Shown here in pieces: positions 1,829 through 10,639 of a DNA stretch of 33,772 nt (its first letter is position 1; each line of letters begins with the position of its first letter). The notes beneath the pieces were generated by a model. That model was not told the origin of the DNA, ran no database searches, and worked only from the letters and a program-made list of their open reading frames with translations. The stretch comes from an uncultured Opitutia bacterium. Its GTDB lineage: Bacteria > Verrucomicrobiota > Verrucomicrobiia > Opitutales > Opitutaceae. The translations under genes were made by a program, and so were the position numbers. The DNA lies in contig CAIKTR010000108.1 of assembly GCA_903830425.1 (NCBI GenBank), positions 1-33,772 on the forward strand. Direction: 5' to 3'.

Positions 1829-2845
1829 ATGCAGCGAACCTACCTCCCACTTGCTTGCCTGCCGGCCTGTATCCTTGGACTGGCTCTGGTTGGCTGTGCC
1901 CGGAACGCTCCGCCGATCCAGCCCCGGGATCCGCTGGGGCAGGGCCGCCTGCTGCCAGGCAAGCCGTGCCTCGGCACGCCCTTCACGCTCTCGAAACTTG
2001 ACCTGGAAATGCGGCCCATCCCGTCCGGGACTTTCCGTCAGGGCAGCCCCCGAAATGAGCCCGGCCGAACGGCCGCCGAGGGCTTACCCGCGTGGGTGAG
2101 CATGGCCCGTCCCTTCTGGCTCGGCCGCACGCCGGTGACGCACGGCCAGTGGCGCGCCCTGATGGGCACGGACCTCGCGGCTCAGGCGCAAAAAGCGTTT
2201 CCCGGCAACCGCGACCTCAGCCAGCTTCTCGCCGGCGCCGATGAATCCGCCGCGATGTACTTGGTGAACTGGCGCGAGGCGATGGAGTTTTGCAGTCGCC
2301 TGAACGCGCGCGCCCGCGCGGAGGGCTCGCTCCCGGCCGGCTATGAATTCACCCTGCCAACCGAGGCCCAGTGGGAGTATGCCTGCCGCGCGGGGACCGC
2401 GGACGCCACGTACGGGGAGGGCCTGAGGCTCGCGGGTGAATCCAGCGCCGCCGGGCTCGGCCGGATCGCGTGGTATGCCGGGAACAGCAGTGTCGGTTAT
2501 GAGGGCCCCGGCTGGGACACCGTGGCTGGGTCGGGTGAAAATTCCCCGGGGGGCCGGGCGGGTCCTCGCGGTGTCGGGCTGAAACAACCCAACGCCTGGG
2601 GGCTCTGTGACATGCTCGGCAATGTTTACCAATGGTGCCGGGATGTTCCGGCCGAGGTGCTTCCTGCCGACGACGTCACCGACCCGACCGGCCCCGTGTC
2701 CGGTTTGGACCGGGTGGTGCGGGGCGGCAGCTGGCACAGCGGTGCGGCCTACTGCCGCGCGGGCTATCGCGCCTGGAACATGGCTGACGGGCGATCCCAG
2801 TTTATCGGCTTTCGCGTGGCCTTGGCGCCGAGTCACCGGGATTGA
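1829..2845 (+). CDS. FGE-sulfatase (SUMF1-like) domain lipoprotein
   Basis: A 338-residue protein with a lipoprotein signal (hydrophobic stretch ending LVGC, Cys 23 as the acylation site) followed by a formylglycine-generating-enzyme fold. Family landmarks in order are MRPIPSGTFRQGS near residue 55, TPVTHGQWRALMG, YLVNWREAMEFC, LPTEAQWEYACRAGT, GLCDMLGNVYQWCRD, RVVRGGSWHSGAAYCRAGYR and a closing FIGFRVAL. In true sulfatase-activating FGE the RGGS segment carries two active-site cysteines; here the first position is Ser (HSGAAYC) and only the second Cys remains. Sulfatase activation is therefore unlikely, and the fold may act as a binding or scaffold module. It follows the LMF-like gene by 9 bp and converges on the DUF2235 gene. 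Family call is firm, function is not. Confidence 0.88.
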   Translation: MQRTYLPLACLPACILGLALVGCARNAPPIQPRDPLGQGRLLPGKPCLGTPFTLSKLDLEMRPIPSGTFRQGSPRNEPGRTAAEGLPAWVSMARPFWLGRTPVTHGQWRALMGTDLAAQAQKAFPGNRDLSQLLAGADESAAMYLVNWREAMEFCSRLNARARAEGSLPAGYEFTLPTEAQWEYACRAGTADATYGEGLRLAGESSAAGLGRIAWYAGNSSVGYEGPGWDTVAGSGENSPGGRAGPRGVGLKQPNAWGLCDMLGNVYQWCRDVPAEVLPADDVTDPTGPVSGLDRVVRGGSWHSGAAYCRAGYRAWNMADGRSQFIGFRVALAPSHRD

Positions 2846-5903: not shown

Positions 5904-7934
5904 TCACCCGCCGAACTGGGGGTGGGCCTCGAGCCGCTGGGCAAAGGCGGGCTTGTCGCTGTCGGCCAGGCCGGGGGGGAATTTGGAATCGCTCCGCCGC
6001 CAGCGCGCGAGCCACTCCGCGCCGAGCAGGCGCGGCCGGCCGGCCGGCGCCGCGGCGCCGGGCCTCCGGGTGTAGGCCACCGTGGTCGTGGCCTTCGGGC
6101 CGGTGCCGACGCCCTCGGCGACGAAAAAGCCCGCCGTGAGCAGGGCGACCCGCACGGCCGTTGCCGCCGAGTAGGTGTAGAGCTCGGCGGGCTTCGGCCG
6201 GCCGTGCTGGATAATCCGCGCAAACACCGCGGGGGTCCACAGCCCGGTGTCGGTCTTGGCGGAAAACGGGTCGTAAAAAATCAGGTCCGGCGCGGGCGCG
6301 GACTCAAGAAAACTCAGGAAGTCGCCGTGGTGCAGCTGCCAGTGGAGCCGGCCGGAGGCGTGCGCCCAGCGGCCGGACTCGAGGAGGGCATGCGGCGCCC
6401 CGTGGTGGAGCGACGGGAAGTGGCTGGCAAAACGCAGCGCGAGCCGCAGCGGGTCGAGGTCGAGCTCAAAGCTCACCAGCCGCAGCGGCCGCACCGCGGC
6501 GGCGCCCTCCCGGTCGAGGGTCTGCTCGCCGCACTGCAGCGCCGCCATGGCGTTCGCCGCCGCCCCCAGGCCGACATCCCAGACCACGAGCTCGTCCGTG
6601 TCGTCCGGCTGCGCCCGCAGGCGCTCCGCCAGCCGCGATTGCTCCACGTAGAGGGCCTGGGCCTCGTCGCTCGGGCGGCTGACCGAGTGCATCACCTCGC
6701 CCGAGCTGCGCTGGCGGATGTTGGCGAAACCCTGCGGGCTGGTGACCACCTCGTAGTCGCCCAGCTGCCGCGAGCGGACGGGCGCGCGCTTCTTCACCGG
6801 GTGGACGACCTGTTCATCGTCGCTGCCGCCGAGCTCGTGGCGCTTCGCCTCGTAGAGGGCGGCGAAGCGGTCTGCGAGGATGCTCTCCCGCAGCTCGCGC
6901 ATCAGGCGGTGGTAGAAGGAGAAGTTGTGCACGCCGAGGAGGTGCCAGCCGAGGACCTCGTCGGCCTTGACCAGGTGGTGCAGGTACGCGCGGGAGTAGG
7001 TCTGGCAGGTGGGGCAGGGGCAGCCGGCCTCGAGCGGCGCCTCGGAGAGCTTGTGCACGCTGCGGCGCACCTGCAGCCGGCCGCGGGCGGTGAACGCGAC
7101 CCCGCGCTGCGCCAGCTGGGAGGGGATGATGCAGTCGAACATGTCGACCCCGCGGTGCACCGCCTCGAGGATGTCGATCGGCGTGCCGACGCCCATGAGG
7201 TAGCGCGGGAGGTTTTTGGGCAGGTGGTCGGTGACGAGCCCGGTGAACTCGTAGCGCTGGGCCTGGGTCTCGCCGACAGCGAGTCCGCCGATGGCGAGGC
7301 CGTCGAACGGCAGCTGGCGCAGGAAGGCCGCGCTCTTCTCCCGCAGGTCGCGGTGGCAGGCGCCCTGCACGATGCCGAACAGCGCGGCCGGGGCGTCGCC
7401 GCGGGCCGCCAGCGAGCGCCGGGCCCAGCGGTGGGTGAGTTCCATCGCGACCGCGGCCTCCGCATGCGGCGCCGTGGACGGGATGCACTGGTCGAGCGCC
7501 ATCATGATGTCGCTGCCGATGACCTGCTGCATCGCGATGCTGGACTCCGGCGAGAGCAGGTGGAGGTCGCCATCGACGTAGCTGCGGAACCGCGCGCCCT
7601 CCTCGTTGAGCGCGCGTTCGCCCGGGAGGGAAAAGATCTGGAAGCCGCCGGAGTCGGTGAGCACCGGCCGGTCCCACTGCATGAAGCGATGGATGCCCCC
7701 GAACCGCTGGAACACCTCGGGGCCGGGCCGGAGCAGGAGATGGTAGGTGTTGGCCAGCAGCACGCTGGCCCCGGTCGCCTTGAGCGTCTCCACCGTCTGG
7801 CTCTTCACCGTGGCCTGCGTGCCCACCGGCATGAACACCGGGGTCTGCACCGGACCATGCCGCGTCTGGAAGGTCGCCGCCCGGGCCTTGGAGCCGGTGG
7901 CTTCGCGTTCGAGGGTGAAGTGGAGACGGGACAT
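5904..7934 (-). CDS. tgt: Bifunctional tRNA-guanine transglycosylase (Tgt) fused to MnmC-type methyltransferase
   Basis: A single 676-residue frame. Residues 1-370 are a complete Tgt, which exchanges G34 for preQ1 in tRNA on the way to queuosine: Asp 94 in LTDSGGFQ, Asp 267 in MFDCIIPS, and the zinc site Cys 305/307/310 with His 336. Residues about 393-625 match the MnmC methyltransferase domain (DUF752/MnmC2), which makes mnm5s2U34: SAM loop DVGLGAAANAM at 453-463, LVSFELD at 487-492, FYDPFSAK with Asp 555, then LW and an AGFFVAEGVGTGPK segment. No MnmC oxidoreductase domain is present. The usual PTRNARxG stretch of Tgt reads PSQLAQRG, replacing both arginines by glutamine. The start at 7934 is the conserved Tgt N-terminus; the frame stays open upstream without homology. 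Domain calls firm; dual activity inferred. Confidence 0.92.
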   Translation of the reverse strand: MSRLHFTLEREATGSKARAATFQTRHGPVQTPVFMPVGTQATVKSQTVETLKATGASVLLANTYHLLLRPGPEVFQRFGGIHRFMQWDRPVLTDSGGFQIFSLPGERALNEEGARFRSYVDGDLHLLSPESSIAMQQVIGSDIMMALDQCIPSTAPHAEAAVAMELTHRWARRSLAARGDAPAALFGIVQGACHRDLREKSAAFLRQLPFDGLAIGGLAVGETQAQRYEFTGLVTDHLPKNLPRYLMGVGTPIDILEAVHRGVDMFDCIIPSQLAQRGVAFTARGRLQVRRSVHKLSEAPLEAGCPCPTCQTYSRAYLHHLVKADEVLGWHLLGVHNFSFYHRLMRELRESILADRFAALYEAKRHELGGSDDEQVVHPVKKRAPVRSRQLGDYEVVTSPQGFANIRQRSSGEVMHSVSRPSDEAQALYVEQSRLAERLRAQPDDTDELVVWDVGLGAAANAMAALQCGEQTLDREGAAAVRPLRLVSFELDLDPLRLALRFASHFPSLHHGAPHALLESGRWAHASGRLHWQLHHGDFLSFLESAPAPDLIFYDPFSAKTDTGLWTPAVFARIIQHGRPKPAELYTYSAATAVRVALLTAGFFVAEGVGTGPKATTTVAYTRRPGAAAPAGRPRLLGAEWLARWRRSDSKFPPGLADSDKPAFAQRLEAHPQFGG

Positions 7935-8031: not shown

Positions 8032-9522
8032 TCAGAGCCCGAAGGCGGCGCTGTAGGCGACGAGGTTCCGGCCCTGGATGCGGAGCCGGATATTGCGGCC
8101 CGCGAGCTCGTCCAGGCTGGTCTTCGTTTTCCACGTGATCGCCGCCCGGGACTGGTCCCCGGTGCAGGGGAGGCAATCCGCCTGGGCGTACCCGGCATAT
8201 TCCACGCCATACCCGGCCCGCAGGATGGAGACCGTGACGGGCTCGGCGCTGATGAAGTTGAGGAAAAGTTTTCCGCCGGGACAACGGAAGGGGAGCGTCG
8301 TAAAAAACCCGTCGCCTTCCGTCTGCTGGCCGACCAACCGGTCCCGCGGGAAGGTGGCGAAGGCCAGCGAGGGTTTCATCGCCGCGAGCCGGCCGGCGGC
8401 GGCGTCATCATGCCGGTCCGCGGAGGCGTAGTAGTAATACCGGTAGTCATCGCCGACCAGGATCGGCGGGGCCAGCCCCAGGTAGGTGCCGCCGGCATCA
8501 TAGGTGCCGGGCGCGCCTGGTGCCAGCAGGCGGGGCCGTGACGGCATGCGGTGCCAGGCGAGATTGTCGCCGCTCTCCACCAGTTCGATCCAGGTCGTCT
8601 GGGTCGTGAGGTCAAACAGGTTGAGAAAGCCCAGCGTGCGCCCGGCCAGGGTGAAGGCGGTCTGGTTGTAGAAGTTGGTCCCGGCGTGGTCGCCGTGGTC
8701 CGGCGTGAAGAGCCACTGCGGATCGCTCCACGTCTCAAAGTCGTCGCTGTGCACCAGCATCCGGCTGCGATTGTCGCCGGCCCGGTCCTTGAGAAAGGCG
8801 TAGTAGCGCCCGGCGGGATCCTGCCAGAGCGACTCCGCGTCCTGCGACGGCAGCACCGTGCCGGTGGGGGTCCAGCGCAAGCCGTCGGGCGAGACGAGCA
8901 GGCAGCCGCCGCGCTGGTCGGGATCCTGCACGTCGTGGTGGTACATCAGCATCTTGTAGCGCCGCGCCGGATCGCGCTCCGCCAGATCCTCGATGACCGA
9001 GGCCGAATCGTTGAAGTAGGCCGGCCAGTGGACGATGATGTTGTTGCCGGGAAATTTTTCCGCGAAGTGCAGGTTCAGCGCCGGGCGGCGCCAGTGCAGG
9101 CCGTCGTCGGACTCGGCATAACAAACGACGCAGTGTTTTTTCCCCTGGAGGGAGTTGTCGATCAGCACCGCTCCCGCCACCACGCCGGGAAATTCCGTGC
9201 CGTAGAAATACTTGAATTTTCCGTCGAGGCGCGACCGGAGCACGCTGCCCCAGCCGAAACCGCTGTGTTCCCACGGCATCTCGGCGGTGAAGACGGGATT
9301 CAGCGGGGATTTGCACAGCGGCTCGAAGCGGTCGGCGCTGTGCTGGCGCTGCGCGATGCAACCGGGGGTGAACAGGATCTCGCGCCGGGGGGCGGCGCCC
9401 GGTCCCGCGGGGGCGGGGCGCCCGACCGCTGCCGCCGCCGCCGGCGGTCCGAACTGGGTCAGCGGCAGCGCCGTCGCAAGCACGGTGGCGGTGTGGAGGA
9501 AGTGCCGGCGGGTTTGGTTCAT
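8032..9522 (-). CDS. Tat-exported beta-propeller glycoside-hydrolase-like protein
   Basis: A 496-residue protein beginning with a twin-arginine signal (MNQTRRHFLHT, then a hydrophobic stretch to an Ala-rich cleavage region near residue 35). The body has recurring blade motifs of the form S-x-D-x-x-x-W: SDDGLHW, SPDGLRW, SDDFETW and SGDNLAW. This pattern is typical of five-bladed propellers related to GH32/GH43/GH68-like enzymes and sialidase Asp-boxes. Conserved-looking acidic residues occur in NPVFTAEMPWEHSGFGWGS and SQDAESLW. The exact GH family cannot be assigned. The start at 9522 is preferred over an in-frame ATG 30 bp upstream because it places the Tat motif at the N-terminus. It follows the DUF4434 gene by 22 bp, and both are Tat substrates, suggesting a joint role in periplasmic saccharide use. 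Confidence 0.75.
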   Translation of the reverse strand: MNQTRRHFLHTATVLATALPLTQFGPPAAAAAVGRPAPAGPGAAPRREILFTPGCIAQRQHSADRFEPLCKSPLNPVFTAEMPWEHSGFGWGSVLRSRLDGKFKYFYGTEFPGVVAGAVLIDNSLQGKKHCVVCYAESDDGLHWRRPALNLHFAEKFPGNNIIVHWPAYFNDSASVIEDLAERDPARRYKMLMYHHDVQDPDQRGGCLLVSPDGLRWTPTGTVLPSQDAESLWQDPAGRYYAFLKDRAGDNRSRMLVHSDDFETWSDPQWLFTPDHGDHAGTNFYNQTAFTLAGRTLGFLNLFDLTTQTTWIELVESGDNLAWHRMPSRPRLLAPGAPGTYDAGGTYLGLAPPILVGDDYRYYYYASADRHDDAAAGRLAAMKPSLAFATFPRDRLVGQQTEGDGFFTTLPFRCPGGKLFLNFISAEPVTVSILRAGYGVEYAGYAQADCLPCTGDQSRAAITWKTKTSLDELAGRNIRLRIQGRNLVAYSAAFGL

Positions 9523-9544
9523 GAATGCAGGGCAGGGACGGCCG

Positions 9545-10639
9545 CTACCCATTCAGAAACTTCAGGTAGGCGTCGTGCAGCTCCTCCGCGCCCGGTCCGC
9601 CGATGTTCACCTTGTCCGTGCGGCGGTTCATCAGGCCCTGGTACTGGTAGATGATGATCTTGTCCGCGACGGGGGCGGCCGCGCGCAACTGGCGTTGCAG
9701 CCGCTCGAAATGGCACGGGGTGCAGATGCGGCGCCCGTCGGGCCGCTGCTCGGAATATTCGAAGACCTCGCAGTTCACCCACAGCTGCTGGCCGACTTTC
9801 TGATGGAGGGGCTTGAGCAGGGCATAACCTTCGGCGGCCTCGTTGAAATTCAGCGAGGGGTAGAGTTTCTCGAAGCCGGCGTGGTCCTGGTAGGCGATGA
9901 TGTCCACGTTGAGCTGCTCCAGCTGGCGCAGGAGGGGCCCCTGCTGTTCCGGGCGCGGGCGCTTGAGGTTGGCGGGCGACATCATCAGCCGGACGCCGGG
10001 GACGCGGGCGCGGATCGCCTGCGTCAGCTTCGACGTTTTGTCGCAGTCCGCCTGTGCAAACAGGCCTCCGCCCTGCACGGCGTGCGCCTCGGCGGAGAGG
10101 TAGAACCCCTGCAGCGCGCGGTAGTGCCCGTACCGCTCGCGCAGGTCCTCCGCCATGCTGGCCAGCCAGGTGTCATGCTCGGGGGTGAGGTCCGGATTGG
10201 CGTTGAGCGAATAACGGCCGAAGGCGCCGAGCCCGAGGTAGATGCCCATGCCCTGCCGCTCGCAGGCGCGGATGACCGCGCCGACCGGATCCTTGCACGG
10301 CAGGGGCCACTGCACCCCGACCGTCCGCCGGTTCGCCGGGTACAGTGGGCGGCCCCAGAGGGCGCAGTTAGTTAAAATCACCGTGTCGAGGCCCATCGCC
10401 TTCATGTCCGCGACGATCGCCTCCCAGTTTTCGTCCTGCCACTCCCGGCACTCGTCGATCCAGTACTGGGCGTCCCAGTTGTTCACGTGCTGGATGTCGA
10501 GAAAACTGCCCGTGATTTTTGGGGGGCGCGCCCGCGGGGTGACCGCCGGTGCCGCGGCGGCGAGCCCGTAGTGCGCCATGGGGAGGGAGGCCGCGAGCAG
10601 GGAGGAGGTCTGGAGGAAGCGGCGCCGGGTTTGTTGCAT
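9545..10639 (-). CDS. Tat-exported DUF4434 family (TIM-barrel, glycosidase-like) protein
   Basis: A 364-residue protein with a clear Tat signal (MQQTRRRFLQTSS followed by a hydrophobic core ending in an Ala-rich stretch near residue 30). The mature part matches DUF4434: ITGSFLDIQHVNNWD, YWIDECREWQDENWE, MKAMGLDTVILTNCALW, GIYLGLGAFGRYS, LQGFYLSAEAHA, DIIAYQDHAGFE and LWVNCEVFEYSE. These lie at the positions expected for strand ends of a TIM barrel, where carboxylates such as the Glu in FYLSAEAH and WVNCEVFE could be catalytic. DUF4434 proteins are often found in polysaccharide-use loci but no activity is firmly established. It is the first gene of the leftward run and lies 22 bp upstream of the propeller gene, so the two probably form one operon. 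Confidence 0.82.
   Translation of the reverse strand: MQQTRRRFLQTSSLLAASLPMAHYGLAAAAPAVTPRARPPKITGSFLDIQHVNNWDAQYWIDECREWQDENWEAIVADMKAMGLDTVILTNCALWGRPLYPANRRTVGVQWPLPCKDPVGAVIRACERQGMGIYLGLGAFGRYSLNANPDLTPEHDTWLASMAEDLRERYGHYRALQGFYLSAEAHAVQGGGLFAQADCDKTSKLTQAIRARVPGVRLMMSPANLKRPRPEQQGPLLRQLEQLNVDIIAYQDHAGFEKLYPSLNFNEAAEGYALLKPLHQKVGQQLWVNCEVFEYSEQRPDGRRICTPCHFERLQRQLRAAAPVADKIIIYQYQGLMNRRTDKVNIGGPGAEELHDAYLKFLNG

Follow-up and report, generated by a model that had tools for sequence, protein, structure and literature searches.

What could a transfer RNA (tRNA)-guanine transglycosylase (Tgt) and a methyltransferase of the MnmC2 type share that would keep them in a single polypeptide? The question is raised by a minus-strand gene in a 33,772-nucleotide stretch of an uncultured Opitutia bacterium (GenBank assembly GCA_903830425.1, contig CAIKTR010000108.1, positions 1 to 33,772; hereafter the window, by which we mean the whole stretch of DNA analysed). 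We find that the fusion is real, conserved and widely scattered, and that the fused protein is an extra, specialised second Tgt kept beside an ordinary one, a fact that escaped the original prediction made for this locus. As to its function, the sequence comparisons suggest, with chances that we regard as evenly balanced, that this second Tgt would feed its own methyltransferase by inserting preQ1 into RNA, where the new base would then be N-methylated.

A fused gene and its distribution

Both halves are encoded in one uninterrupted frame of 676 residues, as had been predicted. The stop-to-stop frame extends upstream of the ATG at 7934, to 8375, and Met occupies exactly this start position in nine of the 11 first-aligned homologues (two residues earlier in one, none there in another). 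The parts of the gene are:

5904..7934, (-) strand: fused tgt-methyltransferase gene, 676 aa, stop codon 5904-5906, ATG at 7934 (homologues aligned)
6828..7901, (-) strand: Tgt domain, residues 12-369 (TIGR00430, 437.4 bits; AlphaFold model against Zymomonas mobilis TGT 1q2r)
7653..7655, (-) strand: Asp94, equivalent to Z. mobilis Asp102 (kept in 89 of 89 fusion Tgts)
7134..7136, (-) strand: Asp267, equivalent to Z. mobilis Asp280 (kept in 89 of 89 fusion Tgts)
7104..7118, (-) strand: residues 273-277, QLAQR, replacing the RxxR(N/H) of ordinary Tgts (Z. mobilis R286 and R289; alignment)
6927..7022, (-) strand: zinc site, C305, C307, C310 and H336 (kept in 89 of 89 fusions)
6762..6827, (-) strand: linker, residues 370-391 (low model confidence; predicted local distance difference test score (pLDDT) <50 at 374-386)
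6054..6761, (-) strand: MnmC2-type methyltransferase domain, residues 392-627 (Methyltransf_30, 50.5 bits; domain model against MnmC2 3vyw)
6249..6272, (-) strand: residues 555-562, DPFSAKTD, with Asp555 retained and Asp562 at the position of the loop Asn of other MnmC2s (domain comparison)
5907..6053, (-) strand: C-terminal tail, residues 628-676, with conserved W..RW.RS and PQF (homologue alignments; similar tail in the stand-alone relatives of genomes G482 and G483)

Profile searches recognised both halves: Pfam TGT matched residues 16-365 with 470 bits, above its cut-off, and Methyltransf_30 (PF05430) exceeded its cut-off of 22 over residues 515-621, placing the expected MnmC-family match within residues 393-625. 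The Tgt model of NCBIfam (TIGR00430) was passed with 437.4 bits against a cut-off of 306.75, and was matched by all 32 fusions scanned. Its MnmC2 model (NF033855) scored 74.5 bits over residues 409-620, below the cut-off of 136; this shortfall was dropped as proof of a new function, since three MnmL-fused and two separate MnmC2s fail likewise (99-123 bits), while a classic MnmC passes at 223.5. Among proteins of solved structure, the sequence matched Z. mobilis TGT (E 8e-111), the MnmC2 of Aquifex aeolicus (3vyw, E 8.5e-5) and YfcK/MnmC of Escherichia coli (2qy6, E 4e-4), with Glu490 and Asp555 corresponding to E101 and D178 of E. coli MnmC.

The Tgt part of the AlphaFold model superimposed on Z. 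mobilis TGT 1q2r with Z 50.2 (368 residues aligned, root-mean-square deviation (rmsd) 2.1). For the methyltransferase domain, modelled alone with a pLDDT of 90.5, the closest structure was A. aeolicus MnmC2 3vyw (Z 23.9, 240 aligned, rmsd 2.8), with MnmC structures at Z 19.0-22.1 and spermidine synthases next (Z 17.7 and below); Foldseek likewise put MnmC2 and MnmC at the top. The full-chain predicted template modelling score was 0.56, and the domain orientation in the model was therefore set aside. In agreement with the original prediction, both catalytic Asp residues are present (Asp94, which we take to have a base-binding/catalytic role, and Asp267, presumably the nucleophile), together with the complete zinc site and Asp555. 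The oxidoreductase domain of MnmC, which binds flavin adenine dinucleotide (FAD), had been described as absent, and a profile search of the window fusion indeed found neither DAO nor MnmC1 (TIGR03197) at E values up to 1. The model of DpdA, a Tgt relative that modifies DNA (NF041059), matched one of the 32 fusions (E 7.5e-4) and none of the other 31 at E 0.001.

Searching 288 genomes of the phylum for Methyltransf_30 led to 18 regions, of which 11 (those picked for long frames) hold the same fusion and seven do not; three of the 11 fusions sit in single-contig genomes (G088, G140 and G274). When a collection of 84,980 species was scanned with the methyltransferase alignment, 519 stretches were found to encode a relative, and the best 80 of these 519 comprise 76 in-frame Tgt fusions, three cut by a contig end and one apparently split by a frameshift. 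The lineage is centred on Verrucomicrobiota, as expected: by record label (which may be wrong for metagenome-assembled genomes, MAGs) 69 of the best 80 belong to this phylum, five to Myxococcota, and one each to Spirochaetota, Binatota, Acidobacteriota, Bacteroidota and Riflebacteria, with one unlabelled. Within the window's own family the distribution is patchy, G060 of the same genus being without the fusion. The window's genome is a draft of 254 contigs, which would suit an assembly artefact or a chance join of two genes; the architecture shared by 76 of the 80 named loci and by three single-contig genomes rules this out, and neither a frameshift nor an assembly join deserves more than a negligible probability here.

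A second Tgt with an altered RNA-facing helix

The fused Tgt had been predicted to start queuosine at GUN anticodons, a task for which carriers of the fusion possess a separate, ordinary Tgt. By means of a methyltransferase-domain search, 223 genomes of the order were divided into 17 carriers and 206 non-carriers, and at least two Tgt matches were recovered from 15 of the 17 carriers versus a single non-carrier (G342, in which both matches are weak and probably stem from one split gene). The two carriers with one Tgt match, G459 and the window's genome, are drafts. All that G459 yielded of the fusion is a frame of 47 residues from its end, lying where a contig stops; in the window's species, the final 48 residues of a stand-alone Tgt are encoded at the start of another contig (C252), whose DNA there matches the stand-alone tgt of G060. 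Among 36 further carriers, a second Tgt or pieces of one were present in 34 (none in G483 and G502). The possibility that the fusion is the cell's sole Tgt was rejected, since carriers also have a stand-alone Tgt, including the one cut by a contig end in the window's species.

The two kinds of Tgt are also well separated in sequence. The window's fused Tgt shares 40-50% identity with stand-alone Tgts and 64-81% with other fused ones, and in a tree of 38 fused (of the 89 available) and 60 stand-alone Tgts a single branch separates the two groups (support 100/100, stem length 1.11); for this tree X was turned to gap, and the program warned of long branches meeting at the stem.

The interior of the fused Tgt is conserved. 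Identical in 89 of 89 fusions (Z. mobilis numbers) are N70, D102, D156, C158, Q203, G230, L231, A232, V233, E235, M260 and D280, position 106 is Phe or Tyr, and the zinc-site residues are invariant. According to PMC4425180, Val233 and Cys158 make bacterial Tgts preQ1-type rather than queuine-type. Since the preQ1-pocket and catalytic residues checked are intact, the base inserted would be preQ1.

The surface that faces the RNA has changed. In stand-alone Tgts the two Arg residues of the TRxxR helix (R286 and R289), which we take to be the motif of G34-specific Tgts, are both present in 60 of 60 (E. coli's included; the count covers 60 of 61 rows, the Tgt of locus L064 being left out, its contig ending inside the fusion), and they occur together in none of the 89 fusions. 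R286 is lost in all 89 (Gln in 81, Lys in seven, Ala in one) and R289 in 86 (Gln in 82, Lys in two, His in two). In a TGT-RNA crystal structure, R286 and R289 reportedly contact the bases beside G34 and read the anticodon loop. Arg286 is described as part of helix alpha-B, lining the cavity between the ribose-34/phosphate-35 pockets of both subunits (PMC5395182), and the exchange of preQ1 by Tgt is stated to require a U33-G34-U35 motif (PMC4425180). Given the loss of these two arginines, and with an ordinary Tgt still there for queuosine, the target guanine probably lies outside the standard U33-G34-U35 set, or at the same position under different rules, and a role in starting queuosine at GUN anticodons fits the fused enzyme poorly.

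That two Tgts occur together might also be explained if the fused one were mainly an RNA-binding or heterodimeric partner of the ordinary enzyme (as QTRT2 is of QTRT1), leaving the methyltransferase as the only catalytic half. In contrast to what a degenerate partner subunit would show, none of the 89 fusions has lost any of the catalytic, zinc or pocket residues examined, and we judge such an arrangement highly improbable.

Some features of the other Tgts were recorded along the way. The stand-alone Tgts (loci L066-L094 and L177-L206) have Val for Leu231 in 49 of 61 rows and Ser for Ala232 in 53 of 61, and where two of the zinc ligands align, most of the 61 rows have no Cys, which may reflect an alignment shift. 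The spirochaete MAG G471 carries a third, divergent Tgt that keeps TRxxR (L210:990-2144, + strand) and overlaps a following open reading frame (ORF) resembling a small methyltransferase.

The methyltransferase half and its possible substrate

We compared the methyltransferase domains of 32 fusions with 29 other MnmC2 domains (24 from fusions with MnmL, three from fusions with the FAD domain, L047, i.e. a 258-residue frame of G186, and the separate MnmC2 of G471), 27 of the 29 being those of L001-L030 linked by BLAST to the fusion's methyltransferase. Glu490 and Asp555, on the side of S-adenosylmethionine (SAM), are conserved in all 32 fusions, and Lys614 (E. coli K236, listed under 'RNA binding' in Table 2 of PMC3648344) is Lys in 30 and Arg in two. 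The substrate side is altered: the loop Asn (of the SPxxN(P)ELW type), found in 29 of 29 other MnmC2s as well as in those of E. coli and Aquifex, is Asp in 31 of the 32 fusions and Asn in one; three positions earlier, a Pro shared by 23 of the 29 others gives way to Ala, Ser or another residue; 28 of the 32 fusions have Ala or Ser where 26 of the 29 others have Arg after the Lys that corresponds to Lys614; and all 32 have Met where 28 of the 29 carry an aromatic residue (Tyr or Phe) before the conserved His. We infer from these patterns that N-methylation of an exocyclic amine may have been retained while base recognition was re-tuned; it is our own idea that the loop swap could replace an Asn able to read uracil's edge by an Asp able to read guanine's.

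Stand-alone relatives of the fusion's C-terminal half, kept apart from this comparison, are encoded in G483 (L208:1145-2017, - strand) and G482 (L209:1182-2051, - strand). They have a similar tail (LLG..W...RRS...HPQF) together with an MnmC2-type SPxRN loop, and each lies directly downstream of an ORF with a HAD-like appearance.

The altered substrate side bears directly on the function first proposed for the locus, namely that one enzyme serves two tRNA sets, the Tgt acting on G34 of GUN anticodons and the methyltransferase on 5-aminomethyl(-2-thio)uridine (nm5(s2)U34) of UUN-type tRNAs, coupling the decoding of paired codons. MnmC2 is the nearest relative of the methyltransferase in both fold and sequence, and in 46 of the 54 carriers searched (11 + 35) no other clear enzyme for making the methylated product (mnm5U) was found, counting among the 46 G482 and G483 with their diverged stand-alone relative and four carriers with a further weak Methyltransf_30 match. 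Aquifex is known to have an MnmC2 that stands alone, with no oxidase attached (PMC6313347; PMC3648344). The need for another route to the nm5 precursor, which had been deduced from the missing oxidase, falls away, as MnmE was present in 38 of 38 genomes tested and MnmEG can form nm5U directly from ammonium (PMC3936742).

Against such a bridge stand the ordinary Tgt available for GUN tRNAs, the loss of TRxxR in the fused one, the altered residues just described, and the presence of MnmM or a separate MnmC2 alongside the fusion in eight of 54 carriers. The profile used for MnmM was PF06962, which we take to represent an nm5s2U methylase of another family: it detected MnmM in all seven carriers tested from family f3, and in neither the other 11 first-set carriers nor the 36 of the second set. 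MnmM has been equated with YtqB (PMC9976899). The separate MnmC2 of G471 scores 94 bits with PF05430 and 111 bits with NF033855. Moreover, neither MnmC2 nor MnmM was found in 15 of the 16 non-carriers of f1, the family to which the window belongs, and mnm5U is seemingly not generally needed there. We regard the two-tRNA bridge as unlikely, and as the weaker rival of preQ1 insertion and methylation. Of the original prediction, the Tgt/MnmC2-type fusion without an oxidase stands, whereas the sole or queuosine-starting role of the Tgt, the nm5s2U34 target and the separate nm5 route do not, at least as worded.

What the aminomethyl substrate might be instead is suggested by the company that MnmC2 domains keep. 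Among the phylum's 30 top-scoring Methyltransf_30 loci (BLAST), the domain is fused to an MnmL-like radical SAM domain in 26 (L005-L030, e.g., L027:250-1992 and L011:280-1986, both + strand) and to the MnmC FAD domain in four; profile searches bore this out for one FAD fusion and for the three MnmL fusions scanned, each of which exceeded the TIGR01212 cut-off. Fusion of MnmC2 to the maker of its substrate is hence common, though not universal. Both MnmL and the FAD oxidase are enzymes of the pathway leading to nm5U, on which MnmC2 acts (PMC12548931; PMC9976899). QueF was found in 18 of 18 first-set carriers and in 16 of 20 non-carriers. The product of QueF is preQ1, i.e. 7-aminomethyl-7-deazaguanine, and a Tgt likewise delivers an aminomethyl group. 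We reason that, with MnmC2 partners making its aminomethyl substrate, a Tgt delivering an aminomethyl base and QueF in the first-set carriers, insertion of preQ1 followed by its N-methylation would be the economical mechanism. In a first step, the Tgt domain would exchange a guanine in RNA for preQ1; in a second, the MnmC2-type domain would use SAM to N-methylate the new CH2-NH2 group, giving 7-(methylaminomethyl)-7-deazaguanine, by the chemistry that turns nm5U into mnm5U, on a deazaguanine. The redundancy created by MnmM in the seven f3 carriers and by the separate MnmC2 of G471 is in keeping with this mechanism.

The same two domains could act in sequence on one nucleoside and yet place the methyl group elsewhere (on the deazaguanine ring or the ribose), or act on another 7-substituted base in the place of preQ1. 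The fusion and its co-specialised substrate residues would suit any product of the Tgt domain, and recognised QueF was not found in some carriers. MnmC2s and aminopropyltransferases both use amines, and it is among the former (Z 19.0-23.9), then the latter (Z up to 17.7), that the methyltransferase falls, which speaks against this variant; we consider it decidedly unlikely.

Insertion and N-methylation of preQ1 has several observations to contend with. Arg289 is retained in three fusions (L143, L146 and L158), and 82 of 89 have an Arg (Arg277) one position after that of the lost Arg289, which might stand in for it. Unfused MnmC2s exist in the phylum (L047 of G186 and other frames of ~255-330 aa among the lower-scoring matches). 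In the 12 of 36 second-set carriers searched for QueF, the match was strong in six, weak in two (G473, 28 bits; G476, 26 bits) and not found in four (G479-G482), so that these carriers would need preQ1 salvage or use another base. Rfam detected no preQ1 riboswitch in the window and 27 further loci (11 + 16; together 28 of 92 fusion loci, some from the same genomes), and no gene neighbour is conserved, as besides the fusion no ORF family occurs in more than nine of 93 clustered loci (one of the nine-locus families being an antisense frame). Lastly, with no other clear mnm5U methylase found in 46 of 54 carriers, the fusion may serve nm5U after all.

Other genomic observations were uninformative as to the product. 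No operon or riboswitch tie to queuosine genes was seen in the loci clustered or scanned. QueA was not found in two of 18 carriers (G443 and G466) and in one of 20 non-carriers (G290), and its loss was discarded as a weak sign of a non-queuosine product, as it is also missing in a non-carrier and all three genomes are drafts. The window holds no tRNA gene, and among 45 loci one tRNA-Ser (CGA) and one tRNA-Pro (CGG) gene were present. Elsewhere in the window, 8032-9552 (- strand) encodes a 506-aa protein with, by impression, a twin-arginine-like N-terminus and no Pfam match, and 212-1819 and 1829-2845 (both + strand) encode adjacent lipase maturation factor-like and sulfatase-modifying factor-type proteins, read in the same direction.

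Known relatives and the meaning of the fusion

The fusion resembles the bacterial Tgts of Z. mobilis and E. coli in its whole fold (Z 50.2), catalytic Asp pair, zinc site and preQ1 pocket, and departs from them in its C-terminal methyltransferase, in the change of RxxR mostly to QxxQ and in being a second copy beside an ordinary Tgt. With A. aeolicus MnmC2 (MnmC(m)/DUF752, 3vyw) it shares the fold (Z 23.9), the SAM residues, the catalytic-type Asp and the RNA-binding Lys, whereas the Asn-to-Asp change in the substrate loop, the altered Arg after Lys and the altered aromatic before His set it apart, as does a Tgt partner where MnmC2/MnmC(m)/DUF752 has an FAD domain or none. The MnmL-MnmC2 fusions of the same phylum likewise bear the MnmC2 domain C-terminally on a wobble-base enzyme, although that enzyme is of the radical SAM type and works in the mnm5U path, unlike Tgt, and the bifunctional MnmC of E. 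coli joins MnmC2 to a second tRNA-34 enzyme, in that case the FAD oxidase that the fusion lacks.

Methylated preQ1 reportedly occurs in phage DNA, and would be the same base, though in DNA and not in RNA. The RNA 7-deazaguanines named in the available part of a review (PMC7694415) are preQ0, preQ1, oQ, Q, GalQ, ManQ, GluQ and G+. No paper on the fusion, nor on methylated preQ1 in tRNA, was recognisable by its title or the start of its abstract among the literature matches listed, in which coverage of subscription papers is limited. By NCBI's Tgt model these proteins would be named plain Tgt, a label that on present evidence misleads for the 76 loci in which we confirmed the fusion, and that may do so for most of the 519 stretches.

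The families involved are known ones in a new, variant arrangement, with a fair chance of an undescribed RNA modification; the evidence points to a methylated RNA base not yet described, more than to an enzyme bridging two tRNA modifications already known. More tentatively, and with our doubts outweighing our confidence, we propose that the fusion marks a widespread, undescribed RNA pathway, in which a second Tgt would put preQ1 at guanines other than those of the queuosine set, to be N-methylated there by an MnmC2 domain whose specificity would have shifted from uridine to deazaguanine. Were the two-tRNA bridge true instead, two wobble-base systems would be tied in one protein. If insertion and methylation of preQ1 is what the fusion carries out, a methylated member would be added to the known RNA 7-deazaguanines, and a Tgt and a U34 methylase would have been jointly turned to a new nucleotide.

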